This document shows, piece after piece, positions 6,015-41,488 of a DNA stretch of 64,000 nucleotides (its first letter is position 1; each line of letters begins with the position of its first letter). Made by a program: the position numbers and the translations under genes. This stretch comes from a virus. Where the stretch lies: positions 1 through 64,000 of IMG/VR virus record IMGVR_UViG_3300047320_000210; one strand, written 5' to 3'. Below the pieces are notes generated by a model. It searched no databases and was not told the origin of the DNA. It saw nothing but the letters and a program-made list of their open reading frames with translations.

Positions 6015-6638
6015 TCAATCGTCGTCGGCGTTGGGGTCGCCGAGCAACAAATCGCCCTGCTTGGCCCTGGCCTGCTCCAGCTCCAGCTGTTTGGCGGCCT
6101 TGGTCCCGGCGCGCACGTAGTCGTTGACGACGCGCAGGCGATCCCCTTTGTAGAACAGGTTCGGGTTGACCCAGTAGAGGTTTTCGCGGCGCTGCACCGG
6201 GGCCAGAAAGCCTTTCACGCACAGCTCGTTGATGCCGTTGTTGTAGCTGGTCCGCGACTTACTGAATTCATAGTCGAGGTGGATCACGTCGTAGCTGATG
6301 TACATCTGATCCGGCTGGTGTTTCTGTTCCAAGTACACACCGAGGACCGCCCGAAACACGTCCTTGGCCGGCTTGGTCAGCTCGAACACCTCCATGATCC
6401 CGGCGCCGAAGAATTTGATGAATTCTTCCTTGTCGACTATCTTCTGCACCCCGATCACCGCCATGTCGCCCGCGATCTCGCCGGTGTTCTGGTTGATCAG
6501 GGCGTGGCTGGCACTGGCGAAGCCGGTCACCCGGCGGCCTTTCTTGATGGTGTGCACCAGCTCACCGGCCCACGGGTTGTCCCTGACCGCGATCACTTCG
6601 GCGCGGGAGGTGTAATAGCCCTTTTTCTCATCAGTCAC
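6015..6638 (-). CDS. RepL-like winged-helix replication or regulatory protein
   Basis: This 207-residue protein has a central winged-helix region. A helix with SYNNGINEL (about residues 130-138) and GFLAPVQRRENLYWVNPNLF (about 142-161) followed by YKGDR matches the remembered signature of RepL-type plasmid replication initiators, in which an INP.. element precedes FxGDR. Such proteins bind repeats at a plasmid origin or their own promoter. Here two long palindromes lie directly upstream, supporting DNA binding at its own locus. Translation probably starts at GTG 6638 behind AAGGGGT. A role as transcriptional regulator only is the main alternative. Confidence 0.65.
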   Translation of the reverse strand: MTDEKKGYYTSRAEVIAVRDNPWAGELVHTIKKGRRVTGFASASHALINQNTGEIAGDMAVIGVQKIVDKEEFIKFFGAGIMEVFELTKPAKDVFRAVLGVYLEQKHQPDQMYISYDVIHLDYEFSKSRTSYNNGINELCVKGFLAPVQRRENLYWVNPNLFYKGDRLRVVNDYVRAGTKAAKQLELEQARAKQGDLLLGDPNADDD

Positions 6639-6721
6639 GTAGAATCTACCCCTTGTTTTCTACTTATTCGGTAAGGCTTTCAACAACTTCGGTGCGAATA
6701 CTATAGTCAAATCCACCAAAA

Positions 6722-6750
6722 CGGTAGAAAAATCAGATACTTTTCTACCG
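6722..6750. repeat. Palindrome 1 of the RepL-like locus
   Basis: CGGTAGAAAA (6722-6731) and its exact inverse TTTTCTACCG (6741-6750) are separated by 9 bp. The same core TTTTCTACC or a variant also appears at 6656-6663, 6762-6769 and 6794-6802, and a small dyad GTAGAATCTAC lies at 6639-6649 next to the GTG start of the RepL-like gene. Confidence 0.8.
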
Positions 6751-6804
6751 CCCGGCGCAGACTTTCTACGAATTTGTCTGGAACCTGGTGAGGTTTTCTA
6801 TCGG

Positions 6805-6837
6805 TTTGGTAGAAAATACACATGGTTTTCTACCAAA
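6805..6837. repeat. Palindrome 2 of the RepL-like locus
   Basis: The 12-bp arms TTTGGTAGAAAA (6805-6816) and TTTTCTACCAAA (6826-6837) have the same 9-bp spacing as palindrome 1. The two centres are 85 bp apart, close to eight helical turns, so bound proteins would sit on the same face of the DNA. From 6838 to 7038 I see no gene, only a near-palindrome around 6864-6876 and an AT-rich stretch at 6918-6936. Confidence 0.8.
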
Positions 6838-7038
6838 ACAGTCGCAATTTCGCATCGCCACAGTGTGAATTTCACATCGACCCCCCGCGGAAACAAAGGG
6901 CTGCAGTGATTGCCCTTCTTAATCTTATATATAGGGGTGTTTCAGTGCCCTAACAGCCTGACGCCTCGCTGCGCTCGTTGTCGGGCCTGAAAAGCCCCGG
7001 CGCATGAAGCCGCACCGGACCTTTCCCGACCTGACGTT

Positions 7039-7305
7039 TCACAGCGCCACCACGCTCGGTTCCAACCGCGCCACCCGCAGCACCGAGTGGGCCACCGCGC
7101 CAATGTCGAGGTCCAGCGCCTCGCACAGCTTGGCCACCAGCATGAACGACGGCGCACTCTGCCCGTGCTCGATCTCCCACAGGTAGGACTTCGACGTCCC
7201 GACCAGCTTGGCCACGTCGTCCAGGGTCAGCCGCAGGGCCTTGCGCTGGACGTAGCAGAGTTGCCCCAGGTACTCCATTTCCGGGGTTGCCGGGGTGCCG
7301 CTCAT
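7039..7305 (-). CDS. XRE/Cro-type transcription regulator
   Basis: This 88-residue protein is essentially one helix-turn-helix domain of the Cro/CI (XRE) type. The helix LTLDDVAKLVGTSKSYLWEIE (about residues 26-46) matches the family pattern Q/T-x-x-x-A-x-x-x-G-x-s-x-s-x-x-x-x-E, followed by the usual HGxxxPS and AKLCEAL elements. Short single-domain members are typical phage repressors or antirepressor-control proteins. It is the last gene of the leftward cluster 7039-11928. Its ATG has no ribosome binding site of its own and overlaps the stop of a six-codon leader (7302-7322), so it is probably translated by coupling. Confidence 0.85.
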   Translation of the reverse strand: MSGTPATPEMEYLGQLCYVQRKALRLTLDDVAKLVGTSKSYLWEIEHGQSAPSFMLVAKLCEALDLDIGAVAHSVLRVARLEPSVVAL

Positions 7306-7326: not shown

Positions 7327-7566
7327 TCATTCCTTTGAATCTGTTTGTTGTTGTTCGGCATCGCGCAGCGCCCGTCTCAAGTCGCCCTTGGTGCGTTTGC
7401 GGGCAAACGGGCAGCTCGGGGTGTACGAGGCATAGACCGGCCGGGTGTGGGGCCGGCGGAACACCAGGTGGGTGCCGCCGGTGATGTCACAGGTAAAGCC
7501 CAACTCCTTGGCCCAGTCCAGCAGTGCGCGCAGTTCTGGACCGCCGCCCCGCGTGACGGCGGTCAT
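7327..7566 (-). CDS. HicA-like protein without an adjacent HicB
   Basis: This 79-residue protein has a HicA-type double-stranded RNA-binding fold signature: helix LRALLDWAKELGF, strands with DITGGTHLVFRRP in which His33 would be the catalytic residue, a strand with VYASYTPS, and a C-terminal helix. HicA toxins are mRNA interferases, but many phages carry shorter solitary relatives of unknown activity. No HicB-like antitoxin is adjacent; the downstream neighbour is an XRE regulator. The start overlaps the stop of the upstream vWA gene (TGATG). Confidence 0.65.
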   Translation of the reverse strand: MTAVTRGGGPELRALLDWAKELGFTCDITGGTHLVFRRPHTRPVYASYTPSCPFARKRTKGDLRRALRDAEQQQTDSKE

Positions 7567-8222
7567 CACGCACCTTTGCGGCTCTTCGCCGCTTTCTTCG
7601 CCACGGCCTGCTCGACCGCCGCCACCGTCGCGGCCGGTATCGCAGCCGTGGTCGCCGGCCCGGAACGCAAGCTGCGCGTGGCGTTGCTGACACTGGCGTA
7701 GCCTTGCGTCACCCCGGCCCCGCTGGCGGCAAAGGTGTGCGCGTGGGCACCGCTCATGCCGTAGAACTGCGCGGTGGCGAAGGCGTCCTGGTTGGCCGCG
7801 AGGAACACGAAGACCCAGCCCTTGGCCTCGGCCTGCCCCACGAGGTCGCGCACCATCGGCGCGTTGAATTCCTTGCTCTGGTTTTCCCCGCCATCGGTGG
7901 TGATGCAGACGATGACTTTCTCGGCCCAGCCCTCGGCCGCGATCCGTGCCCCTTCCACCTGCAGGGTGCGCCCGATGGCGTCCATCAACGCCGTACCGCC
8001 CCGTGGCACGAAGGTCGCCGAGGTCAGCGGCTCGGCCTCGGCCAGCGGCTTGGCGGCGTACAGCACCTGGTACTGGTCATCGAACAACACGACCGTCAGC
8101 CGCGCTTCGCCCTCGATCGCCTGTTGGTCCTTGAGGAAGGTGTTGAAGCCGCCGATGGCGTCGGCGGCAATCGTGGCCATGGAGCCACTGATGTCGAGTA
8201 CCGCGAGAATTTCAGTATTCAT
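7566..8222 (-). CDS. von Willebrand factor A domain protein
   Basis: A 218-residue protein consisting of a vWA domain (residues 1-165) with a complete metal-ion-dependent adhesion site: Asp10-x-Ser12-x-Ser14 in LDISGSM, Thr77 in RGGTALMD and Asp110 in TTDGGEN. The remaining residues are an Ala-rich, basic tail. There is no signal peptide, so it is cytoplasmic. vWA proteins bind partners through a Mg ion, often with AAA ATPases or in toxin and stress systems; none of those partners is nearby. The start follows AAAGGA in a sequence repeated before neighbouring genes. Confidence 0.85.
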   Translation of the reverse strand: MNTEILAVLDISGSMATIAADAIGGFNTFLKDQQAIEGEARLTVVLFDDQYQVLYAAKPLAEAEPLTSATFVPRGGTALMDAIGRTLQVEGARIAAEGWAEKVIVCITTDGGENQSKEFNAPMVRDLVGQAEAKGWVFVFLAANQDAFATAQFYGMSGAHAHTFAASGAGVTQGYASVSNATRSLRSGPATTAAIPAATVAAVEQAVAKKAAKSRKGA

Positions 8223-11739: not shown

Positions 11740-11928
11740 TTACTCAGGCAGCAGGGCTTCGGCCTTCTGCTCCAGGATGCGGTTGTAGATTTCTTCACGA
11801 TGGACTTCGACATGCTTGGGCGCGTCAATGCCGATGCGCACCTGCAGGCCATTGACGCCGAACACCGTCAAGGTGATGTCGTCGCCAATCTTGATGGTTT
11901 CGTTAACGCGGCGAGTCAATATCAACAC
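11740..11928 (-). CDS. csrA: CsrA/RsmA-family RNA-binding regulator
   Basis: This 62-residue protein is a full-length match to the CsrA/RsmA family. It starts LILTRR, has [17 protein letters not shown] and HREEIYNRI in the right order and at the right positions, and retains Leu4 and Arg44, the RNA-contacting residues of E. coli CsrA. The family forms a domain-swapped dimer that binds GGA motifs near ribosome binding sites and blocks or protects mRNAs. The start is GTG 11928, giving the canonical family length; GGAG lies 8 bases upstream. It heads the leftward cluster. A phage copy could rewire host translation or control phage mRNAs. Confidence 0.95.
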
Positions 11929-11960
11929 AATCCATTCTCCATGTTTGGGTCTACTGACCC
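11929..11960 (-). promoter_or_regulatory. csrA leader with two GGA motifs and a hairpin
   Basis: On the - strand, two GGA motifs (11938-11940 and 11931-11933) flank and include the ribosome binding site of csrA. A small hairpin (five-base stem 11947-11951 with 11956-11960) lies just upstream. CsrA family proteins are known to repress their own mRNA through such sites; autoregulation here is inference. Confidence 0.45.
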
Positions 11961-12174
11961 GGGATTCATACTGTAACGTTCGTGAGACACATAACCCTAG
12001 CAGGTAAAACAGCGGCTGTCGGGCCGAGGCCCTTGGCACGCCCTATGCTCCCACTGGCGTGGAAGCCCCTAGGTCCGGCCCTTAAAAAAAGGCGTTCCCT
12101 ATGACTCCACGCAGTGGGGATGTTTGGGTAAAAACCCACTCCCACTCCCAGCCGGCGTTCCACACTTTGCGAGG

Positions 12175-39058: not shown

Positions 39059-41488
39059 ATGACAATCACACTGCAGCGCCTAGCGACGACCGGTGAAACG
39101 GCCTACATCGCCAAGCACAACGCGAACTACGACACCCTCGAATCCTCGGTCAACACCCTGCAGGGCACGGTCTACACCTTGCAGCAAGCGTCGGCCAGTC
39201 CGGGGAACCTGTTCAACATCGGCAAGGCGATGTTCGGCCCGACCGCCGTGGCGGTGATCGGCGAGACCTCGTTCGCCAGCAGCACCTCGGGCACCAACCT
39301 GACGCTGCAGCCCGGCTTCTATTGGAACGCCAGCAGCGCGCTGATGGCGTACAAGGCCACCACCACGGTGATTCCGTTCAGTGGCGCCACCGCCGGCACC
39401 TACTACGTGCGCATGGGGATTGACGGCATCCCCTACCGGGACACCAGCAGCGCGGCGGCGCTGTACTCGGTGGTCTGGACCGGCTCGGCGTTCGGCACGG
39501 TGGCCAAGCTGGCCAGCTACGCTCCGGGCTACCAGGACCTGCTCGATCTGCTCAGCAGCAGCTACTCCGGCCTGAGTTACGCCAGCCCGGACAAGCGCAT
39601 CGAAGCCACGGAAAAGGCCTTCAGCGCTTTGCTCAGCAAGGCGATCACCACCGCCGACGTCACCCTGACCGCCACCGAAGCCCTGGAACAGGGGGTGATC
39701 CGCCTGACCGGGACCCCAACAGCGGCGCGCAACCTGATCGTGCCGGCCAAGGCCAAGGTCTACTTCATCGACAACGACACCGCCGGCGCCTTCGCCGTGA
39801 CTGTGAAGACCGCCAGCGGCACCGGCGTGGCACTGGCCAGCGGCACCAACGGCGCGTTGTTCTGCGACGGTACCAACGTGGTGTCGATTGCGACCGCCGC
39901 CGGCAGCGGCGGCGCCTCGGTGTTCACCGACTTGACCGACGTGCCGGCGAGCTATGCCGGGCAGGCGAACAAAGTAGTCAAGGTCAAGGCCGACGAGAGC
40001 GGGCTGGAGTATTCCAGCGCCGCCGCTCCCACTGTGTTTACCGGCCTCACCGACGCCCCAGCGAGCTACACCGGGCAGGCGGGCAAGGTGCCGATCGTCA
40101 ACGTCGGCGAAACCGCACTGGTGTTTGGCGACCCGGTGTCCACCTATCTGGCCCTGACCGACACCCCGGCGAGTTACGCCGGTCAGGCCTACCGCGTTGT
40201 GTCGGTCAAGGGGGACGAGAGCGGGCTGGAGTTTACGGCGGCAGCGGCCCCATCGACCCTACTCGCCTTGACCGACACGCCTGACAGCTACGCCGCCAGC
40301 GCCCTGATGGTGCTGCGGGTCAATGCCGCCGGCACCGCCGTCGAGTTCGCCGCCGGCACCGGCCCGCAGAATTTTCTGGAGTTGCCGGACACCCCGGCCA
40401 ACTACACCTCCAGCGCCTTGAAATTCGTCCGGGTCAACGCGGCGATGACGGCGCTGGAGTTCGCCCCGCTGACCATGACAACCCTGCTCGGTCTGACCGA
40501 CACGCCGGACTCCTATGCGGGTTCCGCGTTCAAGGTGGTCACCGTCAAGGGCGATGAGAGTGGTATCGAGTTTTCGGCCGGCGCCACCCCCACCAGTTTC
40601 ATCGGGCTCACGGATGCGCCCACCAGTTACACCGGGCAAGGCAGCAAGACGGTCAAAGTCAAGTCCGACGCCTCGGGGTTGGAGTTTGTCACGGTGCCGG
40701 CGGGCATCACCGCCTTCACCGGCCTGAGTGACGCACCGGCCAACTACACTGGCGCGGCGAACATGAAGGTCAAGGTCAACTCTGCGGGTACAGGGCTGGA
40801 GTTTGTCACCGACACTGCCGGGGTCACTGCTTTCACAGGCCTCAGTGATGCCCCAGCCAACTACACCGGCGCGGCCACCTACAAAGTGCGCGTCAACTCG
40901 GCCGGCACGGCATTGGAGTTTGTGGCAGACACACGCGCCTTTACCAGCCTCACAGACGTGCCGGCGAACTACACCGGCGCCGCCAACAAAAAGGTTCGGG
41001 TCAACTCGGCAGGGACTGGCTTGGAGTTCGTTACCGACACCACTGGGGCCACGGCGTTTACCGGCCTGTCCGATGTGCCGGCCAACTACACCGGCGCGGC
41101 ACTCAAGAAAGTACGGGTCAACAGCGGCGCCACGGCGCTGGAGTTTGTCGACGAACCCTTTGCTGCCAACTGCACCTGGAACGGCGTAACCACCGCGAGC
41201 CTGGTGCTGATCCACCTGCCCATGCCGGTCGCCGTGACCTTCGCCGCCGCATTCGCCGGGTCGTATGGGGTTGCCACTACGGCCGCCACCGCGCAGACCG
41301 ACTTCGACATCAAGAAAAATGGCACCTCGGTGGGCACCCTGCGCTTCGCTGCGGCAGCCACCACCGCCACTTTTATCGCCGCTTCGCCCGTGAGTTTCGC
41401 TGCGGGCGACGTGTTGAAACTGGTCGGACCGGCCACGCCGGATGCCACCTTGGCCACGCTTGGCCTCACCCTCAAAGGAGTACGCTGA
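39059..41488 (+). CDS. Repeat-built tail fibre protein
   Basis: An 809-residue fibre. An N-terminal tail-attachment region (residues 1-60) contains a short coiled coil. A beta-rich domain extends to about 285. Eleven imperfect repeats of about 36-40 residues follow (about 289-700), each with the pattern F-x-x-L-x-D-x-P-x-x-Y and ending in a LEF strand. A C-terminal domain (about 700-809) carries AAFAGSYGVATTAA and GTSVGTLRFA, typical of fibre or lectin ends. It is likely a trimeric receptor-binding fibre. The last five repeats are most alike, pointing to recent expansion. Confidence 0.85.
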   Translation: MTITLQRLATTGETAYIAKHNANYDTLESSVNTLQGTVYTLQQASASPGNLFNIGKAMFGPTAVAVIGETSFASSTSGTNLTLQPGFYWNASSALMAYKATTTVIPFSGATAGTYYVRMGIDGIPYRDTSSAAALYSVVWTGSAFGTVAKLASYAPGYQDLLDLLSSSYSGLSYASPDKRIEATEKAFSALLSKAITTADVTLTATEALEQGVIRLTGTPTAARNLIVPAKAKVYFIDNDTAGAFAVTVKTASGTGVALASGTNGALFCDGTNVVSIATAAGSGGASVFTDLTDVPASYAGQANKVVKVKADESGLEYSSAAAPTVFTGLTDAPASYTGQAGKVPIVNVGETALVFGDPVSTYLALTDTPASYAGQAYRVVSVKGDESGLEFTAAAAPSTLLALTDTPDSYAASALMVLRVNAAGTAVEFAAGTGPQNFLELPDTPANYTSSALKFVRVNAAMTALEFAPLTMTTLLGLTDTPDSYAGSAFKVVTVKGDESGIEFSAGATPTSFIGLTDAPTSYTGQGSKTVKVKSDASGLEFVTVPAGITAFTGLSDAPANYTGAANMKVKVNSAGTGLEFVTDTAGVTAFTGLSDAPANYTGAATYKVRVNSAGTALEFVADTRAFTSLTDVPANYTGAANKKVRVNSAGTGLEFVTDTTGATAFTGLSDVPANYTGAALKKVRVNSGATALEFVDEPFAANCTWNGVTTASLVLIHLPMPVAVTFAAAFAGSYGVATTAATAQTDFDIKKNGTSVGTLRFAAAATTATFIAASPVSFAAGDVLKLVGPATPDATLATLGLTLKGVR
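39922..41157 (+). repeat. Eleven coding repeats in the tail fibre
   Basis: Coding repeats of about 108-120 bp encode the LTD.P..YTGQA..KV.....G.LEF module. Copies 8 to 11 (from about 40,710) are the most similar and share the PANYTGAA core, so this part can recombine to change fibre length. Confidence 0.8.

Follow-up and report, generated by a model that had tools for sequence, protein, structure and literature searches.

The repL locus and its surroundings

The window analysed here (the whole stretch of 64,000 nucleotides) comprises bases 1-64000 of the record of an uncultivated virus, 83,921 b in total, which encodes TerL, portal, major head, tape measure and tail proteins and which is presumably a soil phage, judging from the kinds of samples behind the IMG identifiers of its relatives. 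The region of interest contains a repL/repY-like initiator gene, with the top coding score in its neighbourhood, and upstream of it a series of repeats, palindromes and short conserved elements (Table 1). The 240 bp upstream of repL have the lowest GC content in the window (42% vs 63%). Directly upstream of this region there is an Xre-type regulator gene (7039-7305), and a gene for a von Willebrand factor A-like protein (7566-8222, minus strand; phrog_7371, E 6.5e-58) is found beside repL in relatives too. The phage also encodes a CsrA-like translational regulator (11740-12039, minus strand; PF02599, E 1e-22), and one tail gene (39059-41488) contains internal repeats (39904-41152, 64-74% identity).

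Table 1. Features of the repL region (window coordinates)
Feature	Position	Strand	Remarks
repL/repY-like initiator gene	6015-6638	-	207 aa, GTG start; recognition-helix residues 128-134 are SRTSYNN
Start-proximal unit, AGTAGAAAACAAGGGGTAGATTCTAC	6639-6664	-	imperfect palindrome abutting the start codon; start-proximal half-site also at several plasmid repY genes
Superunit 2	6665-6749	-	85 bp (32-32-21): P1, degenerate unit with TATAGT -10-like hexamer (6700-6705), single half-site
Palindrome P1	6722-6750		arms 6722-6731 and 6741-6750 (10 bp), 9-bp spacer ATCAGATAC, centre 6736
Superunit 1	6750-6834	-	85 bp (32-32-21): P2, degenerate palindrome, single half-site
Palindrome P2	6805-6837		arms 6805-6816 and 6826-6837 (12 bp), 9-bp spacer TACACATGG, centre 6821
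Two degenerate 21-22-bp direct iterons, ATGCGAAATT.., ATGTGAAATT..	6835-6877	-	equivalents in relative L002 read GGTAGAAT
Origin box, AGATTAAGAAGGG	6913-6925	-	upstream of the array, on its far side from the gene
A+T-rich stretch, ..CCCCTATATATA..	6926-6941	-	directly past the box; kept in the phage group (alignment)

The initiator and its closest families

The preliminary description of this DNA regarded the repL product as a RepL-like winged-helix protein that should be compared with RepL by structure. A winged-helix core is indeed predicted by AlphaFold2 (residues ~70-160, pLDDT ~70-89), and a RepL-domain protein from a crAss-like phage is the best match in a viral fold collection (BFVD; E 3.1e-3), but a fold search of the PDB returned generic winged helices alone (E>=0.13) and a sequence search of the PDB gave no match. 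Direct assignment with Pfam and NCBIfam was likewise negative. The window protein and the two relatives that were scanned did not match Pfam RepL (PF05732) at E<=1, missing the gathering threshold, and the sole match of the window protein in PHROGs was phrog_270 at E 0.25.

Plasmids proved more informative. In a tblastn search, 187 plasmid records match at E<=0.01 (best E 2e-19), many of them annotated RepL, with values of 1e-14 for pMOS6 and 2e-15 for pDSM110277_f. Since several of these plasmid homologues, some of them Gram-negative, exceed the PF05732 cut-off, the window protein is tied to that family transitively. In a maximum-likelihood tree, the four phage proteins form one long branch (2.4) that groups with the RepY plasmids and Sulfuriferula SGTM_pl2 (support 94/92), and the phage and RepY group is set apart from other RepL-like plasmids. 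By sequence comparison, the window protein is clearly a sister, if a distant one, of the proteobacterial plasmid RepY/RepL initiators.

Two other systems deserve comparison. Firmicute RepL (PF05732; the pSN2 family) is, like the window protein, a small winged-helix/HTH initiator, but differs from it in family membership, as described above. The pSN2 plasmids are classed as rolling-circle replicons with a dso (PMC5703833). A dso was not identified in the window replicon, which may replicate by either the theta or the rolling-circle mode.

The second system is RepL/oriL of phage P1, which shares with the window protein the name and the presence of a small initiator in a phage-plasmid, the plasmid maintenance of P1 relying on machinery other than RepL. 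Membership of the P1-type RepL proteins was considered and dropped, as the nearest family is RepY/pMOS6; a sequence search of the phage collection, which is expected to include P1, gave no match to the window protein. Moreover, P1 oriL is thought to lie inside the repL gene (PMC9948254), whereas the repeats of the window are located upstream of it, and the origin search presented here covered this upstream DNA.

A phased iteron array built from 85-bp superunits

Two exact palindromes with 10- and 12-bp arms, identical 9-bp spacers and a centre-to-centre distance of 85 bp had been noticed before; they are confirmed here as the sole inverted repeats with arms of at least 10 bp and a 9-bp spacer in the 64 kb. 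About seven half-sites in all had also been noted, and they are present, but this count was too low: in full, the array consists of nine lattice positions and two inverted partners. It extends over ~6639-6877 and is helically phased, with half-sites on the repL strand following each other toward the start codon in steps of 22-21-(32-32-21)-(32-32-21)-26, that is, with two copies of a 32-32-21-bp superunit.

As this is the most A+T-rich region of the window, where more chance matches are to be expected, the array and its palindromes could in principle be simple-repeat artefacts of intergenic DNA, an explanation whose probability we regard as negligible in view of the following numbers. The half-site motif GGTAGAAA occurs seven times (<=1 mismatch) within the 420 bp that precede repL, against a mean of 0.34 and a maximum of 3 in 2000 mononucleotide shuffles and a mean of 0.18 in segments drawn at random from the 64 kb. 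Against dinucleotide-preserving shuffles, the array shows autocorrelation at lags of 32 (z=5.2), 85 (z=5.6), 117 (z=4.1) and 170 bp (z=4.2). Furthermore, the spacing is kept in a relative (L002) with a protein 73% identical, where the steps are 21, 21, three times 32-32-21, and 27, and the lag-85 signal rises to z=8.9 (dinucleotide shuffling). This relative thus has three copies of the superunit, one more than the window and, judged from these sequences, the array enlarges by 85-bp units across the phage relatives. In two others (L005 and L007) the half-sites resemble TCTTGAA and the repeats measure closer to 54 bp; the periodicity of L007 falls below the 99% null over all lags (0.391 vs 0.415).

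An origin plan shared with RepY plasmids

The box on the far side of the array, absent from the preliminary description, lies just outside the segment then considered. Its form AGANTRAGAA is present with zero mismatches in four phage relatives and ten RepY plasmids, with the array in every case between it and the gene, and its chance expectation is ~0.02 per 500 b (<=1 mismatch of the 12-bp form). The recognition of this box as a shared feature of RepY-type replicons is a result of the present analysis. It lies at -287 to -370 from the start codon in all four phages and at -154 to -219 in the ten plasmids, the phage box being displaced from the start by the enlarged array. The A+T-rich stretch directly past it (6926-6941) is a candidate unwinding region.

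The name RepY was given by Freese and colleagues for pDSM110277_f, where rep with at least 450 bp of upstream DNA is reported to replicate (PMC9025767). The related pMOS6, which has a single Rep and carries upstream two 18-bp repeats 3 bp apart, likewise reportedly needs no more than rep and the DNA preceding it (PMC3832669), and such autonomous replication is reported for these two plasmids alone. Upstream of the ten RepY plasmid genes we found first the box and then 21-22-bp iterons, with a palindrome where the promoter is presumed to lie and, in many cases, a start-adjacent half-site; the smallest plasmids with this box-iteron-palindrome-rep layout measure 2.7 kb (CP057607.1). pMOS6 (Paracoccus marcusii), pDSM110277_f (Sulfitobacter pontiacus), SGTM_pl1 (Sulfuriferula nivalis) and pPsv48C share with the phage a homologous initiator, the exact box, 21-bp direct iterons and a palindrome upstream of rep. 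SGTM_pl1 has, in addition, an adjacent parA and a 78-aa gene of the size of a ParA partner, and its array is intermediate, with a 54-bp step.

By contrast, the phage protein is only 27-34% identical to those of the RepY plasmids and sits on a long separate branch, its half-site GGTAGAA (TCTTGAA in other phage relatives) is unlike theirs, and its origin has 85-bp superunits, a more distant box (287-370 vs 154-219 bp) and a carrier phage of 82-84 kb. Altogether, the phage origin looks like an enlarged version of the origin of small bacterial plasmids. The earlier proposal of an initiator beside its origin is supported by this homology and layout, but the origin would consist of iterons arrayed in 85-bp superunits, together with a box, and not of two isolated palindromes. 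GC skew, which had been suggested as a further check, gave no origin signature and was rejected as evidence, since it follows gene orientation.

The same palindromes might instead be the operator of a domesticated DNA-binding regulator that has lost initiation. They cover the likely promoter, the gene immediately upstream encodes an Xre-type regulator and the PDB fold matches are dominated by generic winged-helix repressors. We nevertheless consider this very improbable, because a phased array of nine positions is superfluous for a repressor, the distant box, shared with plasmids at ~30% protein identity, would have no role for it, the array changes in size by whole 85-bp units and RepY plasmids down to 2.7 kb share the layout. 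As for the promoter, a search found no good -35 beside the -10-like hexamer, and a canonical repL promoter was rejected.

Correspondence between recognition helix and iteron

The sequence of the iteron varies between replicons, and its similarity tracks that of residues 128-134 of the recognition helix. For instance, helices of the SDRTFHN type are paired with AGCGAA, those of the SEKTFQR type with GACAA, those of the SRTSYNN type with GGTAGAA, and SPSTYYN with TCTTGAA. For seven residues in 15 replicons, with half-sites read by hand, helix and half-site similarity remain correlated when overall identity is removed (partial Mantel r=0.36, p=0.0013), also in plasmids alone (r=0.46, p=0.008). 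Contigs outside this set-up agree where comparable: L073 (SDRTFHN, AGCGAAG), L081 (SEKTFQR, GACA-type) and L084. This covariation is indirect evidence that the repL protein binds the array.

Maintenance genes and genome ends

The phage-plasmid lifestyle suggested in the preliminary description is supported by ParA, resolvases and the RepY-like replicon, together with the lack of a detected tyrosine integrase. ParA is encoded outside the window, at 68,194-68,940 of the record (PF13614, E 3.8e-18; phrog_164, E 3e-38), and is present in all three of the largest records. Its 78-aa ribbon-helix-helix-like partner is kept in relatives, with a weak RHH match (PF01402, E 0.048); convincing parS repeats were not found near parA. 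Two adjacent serine recombinase genes lie at 80,345-81,620 of the record (L013:16345-17620), and relatives G001 and G004 have one. A tyrosine integrase (PF00589) was found in none of five related records, the control genomes being positive, and the serine recombinases could in principle integrate.

Two relatives have exact end overlaps of 120 and 127 b, as assemblers give for circular maps, and such maps fit terminally redundant lytic genomes too. The ends of the present record (1-2438 and 81485-83921) overlap over 2.4 kb at 89.6%, beginning inside a serine recombinase gene; either strains differ at a circular junction or a duplication has diverged. A perfect 16-18-bp palindrome, GGCGCCACATGTGGCGCC, is confined to this self-overlapping region, mostly within a 395-aa gene; it occurs at 661-676, 1403-1418 and 1656-1671 of the window and in four more copies from position 82,145 of the record, and had no exact 18-bp match in IMG/VR.

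No near-identical phages were found, nor was any close relative found as an isolate, a plasmid record or a bacterial genome in scans that reach close relatives alone; genome contigs with a RepL or TerL match, sought to identify the host, were likewise absent. Because no close relative turned up in the plasmid and genome collections, neither an extrachromosomal nor an integrated form has been seen.

RepY in a second phage lineage

A scan with SGTM_pl1 RepY as single sequence found no viral relative, but a wider, alignment-based scan did, giving 16 more matches in 15 IMG/VR contigs. In four of these (L075, L081, L082 and L085), a P2-like terminase and/or portal lies near RepY, and ParA is nearby in three of the four; another contig, L079, resembles them by its translation. 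Neither the integrase PF00589 nor the P2 GPA family PF05840 was found in five P2-like RepY records, three of which have a serine resolvase and one of which closes with a 127-b overlap. By gene content, these contigs are a second, unrelated phage lineage with the RepY-ParA-resolvase set.

RepY genes also occur on two viral contigs of ~11 kb, one beside lysozyme and tail-fibre genes (L074:3070-3669) and the other at L078:2949-3587, the former perhaps representing a third phage type. The P2-like plasmid record pPHPALO552 of P. aeruginosa was rejected as a RepY case, as it has an annotated integrase and no annotated RepL. A known parallel is paPv10 of Arsenophonus nasoniae (33.8 kb), a P2-like phage-plasmid with a circular complete plasmid record, which, like the RepY contigs, combines phage genes, a plasmid initiator and a ParA-type AAA ATPase. 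However, its annotation includes a RepA-type initiator and a P2-type replication endonuclease, while the contigs have RepY and no PF05840 match. The exchange of an integrase for a plasmid replicon thus has a precedent in paPv10.

A probable plasmid replicon in a phage

Considering all these observations together, we propose, with a probability of about 0.8, that 6015-6941 is a self-contained plasmid replicon of the RepY/RepL type carried by a phage-plasmid. The main competing reading, which we consider unlikely, makes this region the origin for lytic growth, a role in plasmid maintenance being absent or secondary, in a phage that may be virulent or pseudolysogenic. RepL of P1 is a lytic initiator (PMC9948254), and the phage has, as noted previously, a lytic replisome of its own (PolA, helicases, primase and SbcCD, at 44.7-59 kb), which needs an origin somewhere; besides, its nearest terminases are those of Pseudomonas phages Lana and PMBT3 (~32%). 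However, a purely lytic cycle offers no evident function for ParA and resolvases, the nearest homologues of the initiator drive autonomous plasmids, the presumed P1 origin is internal to the gene and not upstream of it, and the RepY-ParA-resolvase set is found again in P2-like contigs, an unrelated phage background. It is also possible that one origin serves both the lytic and the plasmid cycle.

If the region is a plasmid replicon, RepL/RepY would bind the array through its winged helix, with single half-sites acting as iterons and palindromes taking two protomers. As the latter overlap the presumed promoter, the protein probably represses its own gene. Loading of the phased array beside the conserved AGANTRAGAAGGG box would melt the A+T-rich flank and bring in the machinery for replication, and the prophage would thereby replicate as a low-copy plasmid. 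ParA and the small ribbon-helix-helix-like protein may then segregate it, with the serine resolvase(s) resolving multimers, and lytic growth would use the polymerase, helicase and primase set of the phage. The sequences themselves show the homology, the conserved layout of array and box, the covariation of helix and iteron, the linked maintenance genes and the circular maps of two relatives; in this scheme, binding, autoregulation, melting at the box, the plasmid prophage state and a role of the enlarged array in copy number are all inferred.

A broader model, which we put forward tentatively and rate at slightly less than even odds, is that RepY phage-plasmids are an undescribed group comprising at least two unrelated lineages (82-84 kb tailed phages and P2-like phages), that the 82-84 kb group has enlarged its origin through the tandem gain of 85-bp iteron-operator modules, which set a low copy number, and that a helix/iteron code defines incompatibility throughout the family.

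The replicon family itself has been described before. No phage employing it came up in the phage collection or in the papers searched, which cover part of the literature. As far as could be checked, the enlargement of the array by superunits is new, and so is the correspondence between helix and iteron.

The lifestyle of most uncultured phages is unknown, and a group of presumed soil phages now gains a concrete, testable reason for the phage-plasmid label. The combination of box, phased iterons, palindrome and repY, plus ParA and resolvase, provides a search signature for more such phages. Finally, these results suggest that at least two unrelated kinds of phage have acquired a plasmid replicon that was familiar chiefly from small plasmids. 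The code linking recognition helix and iteron could be used to predict which plasmids and phages are incompatible.
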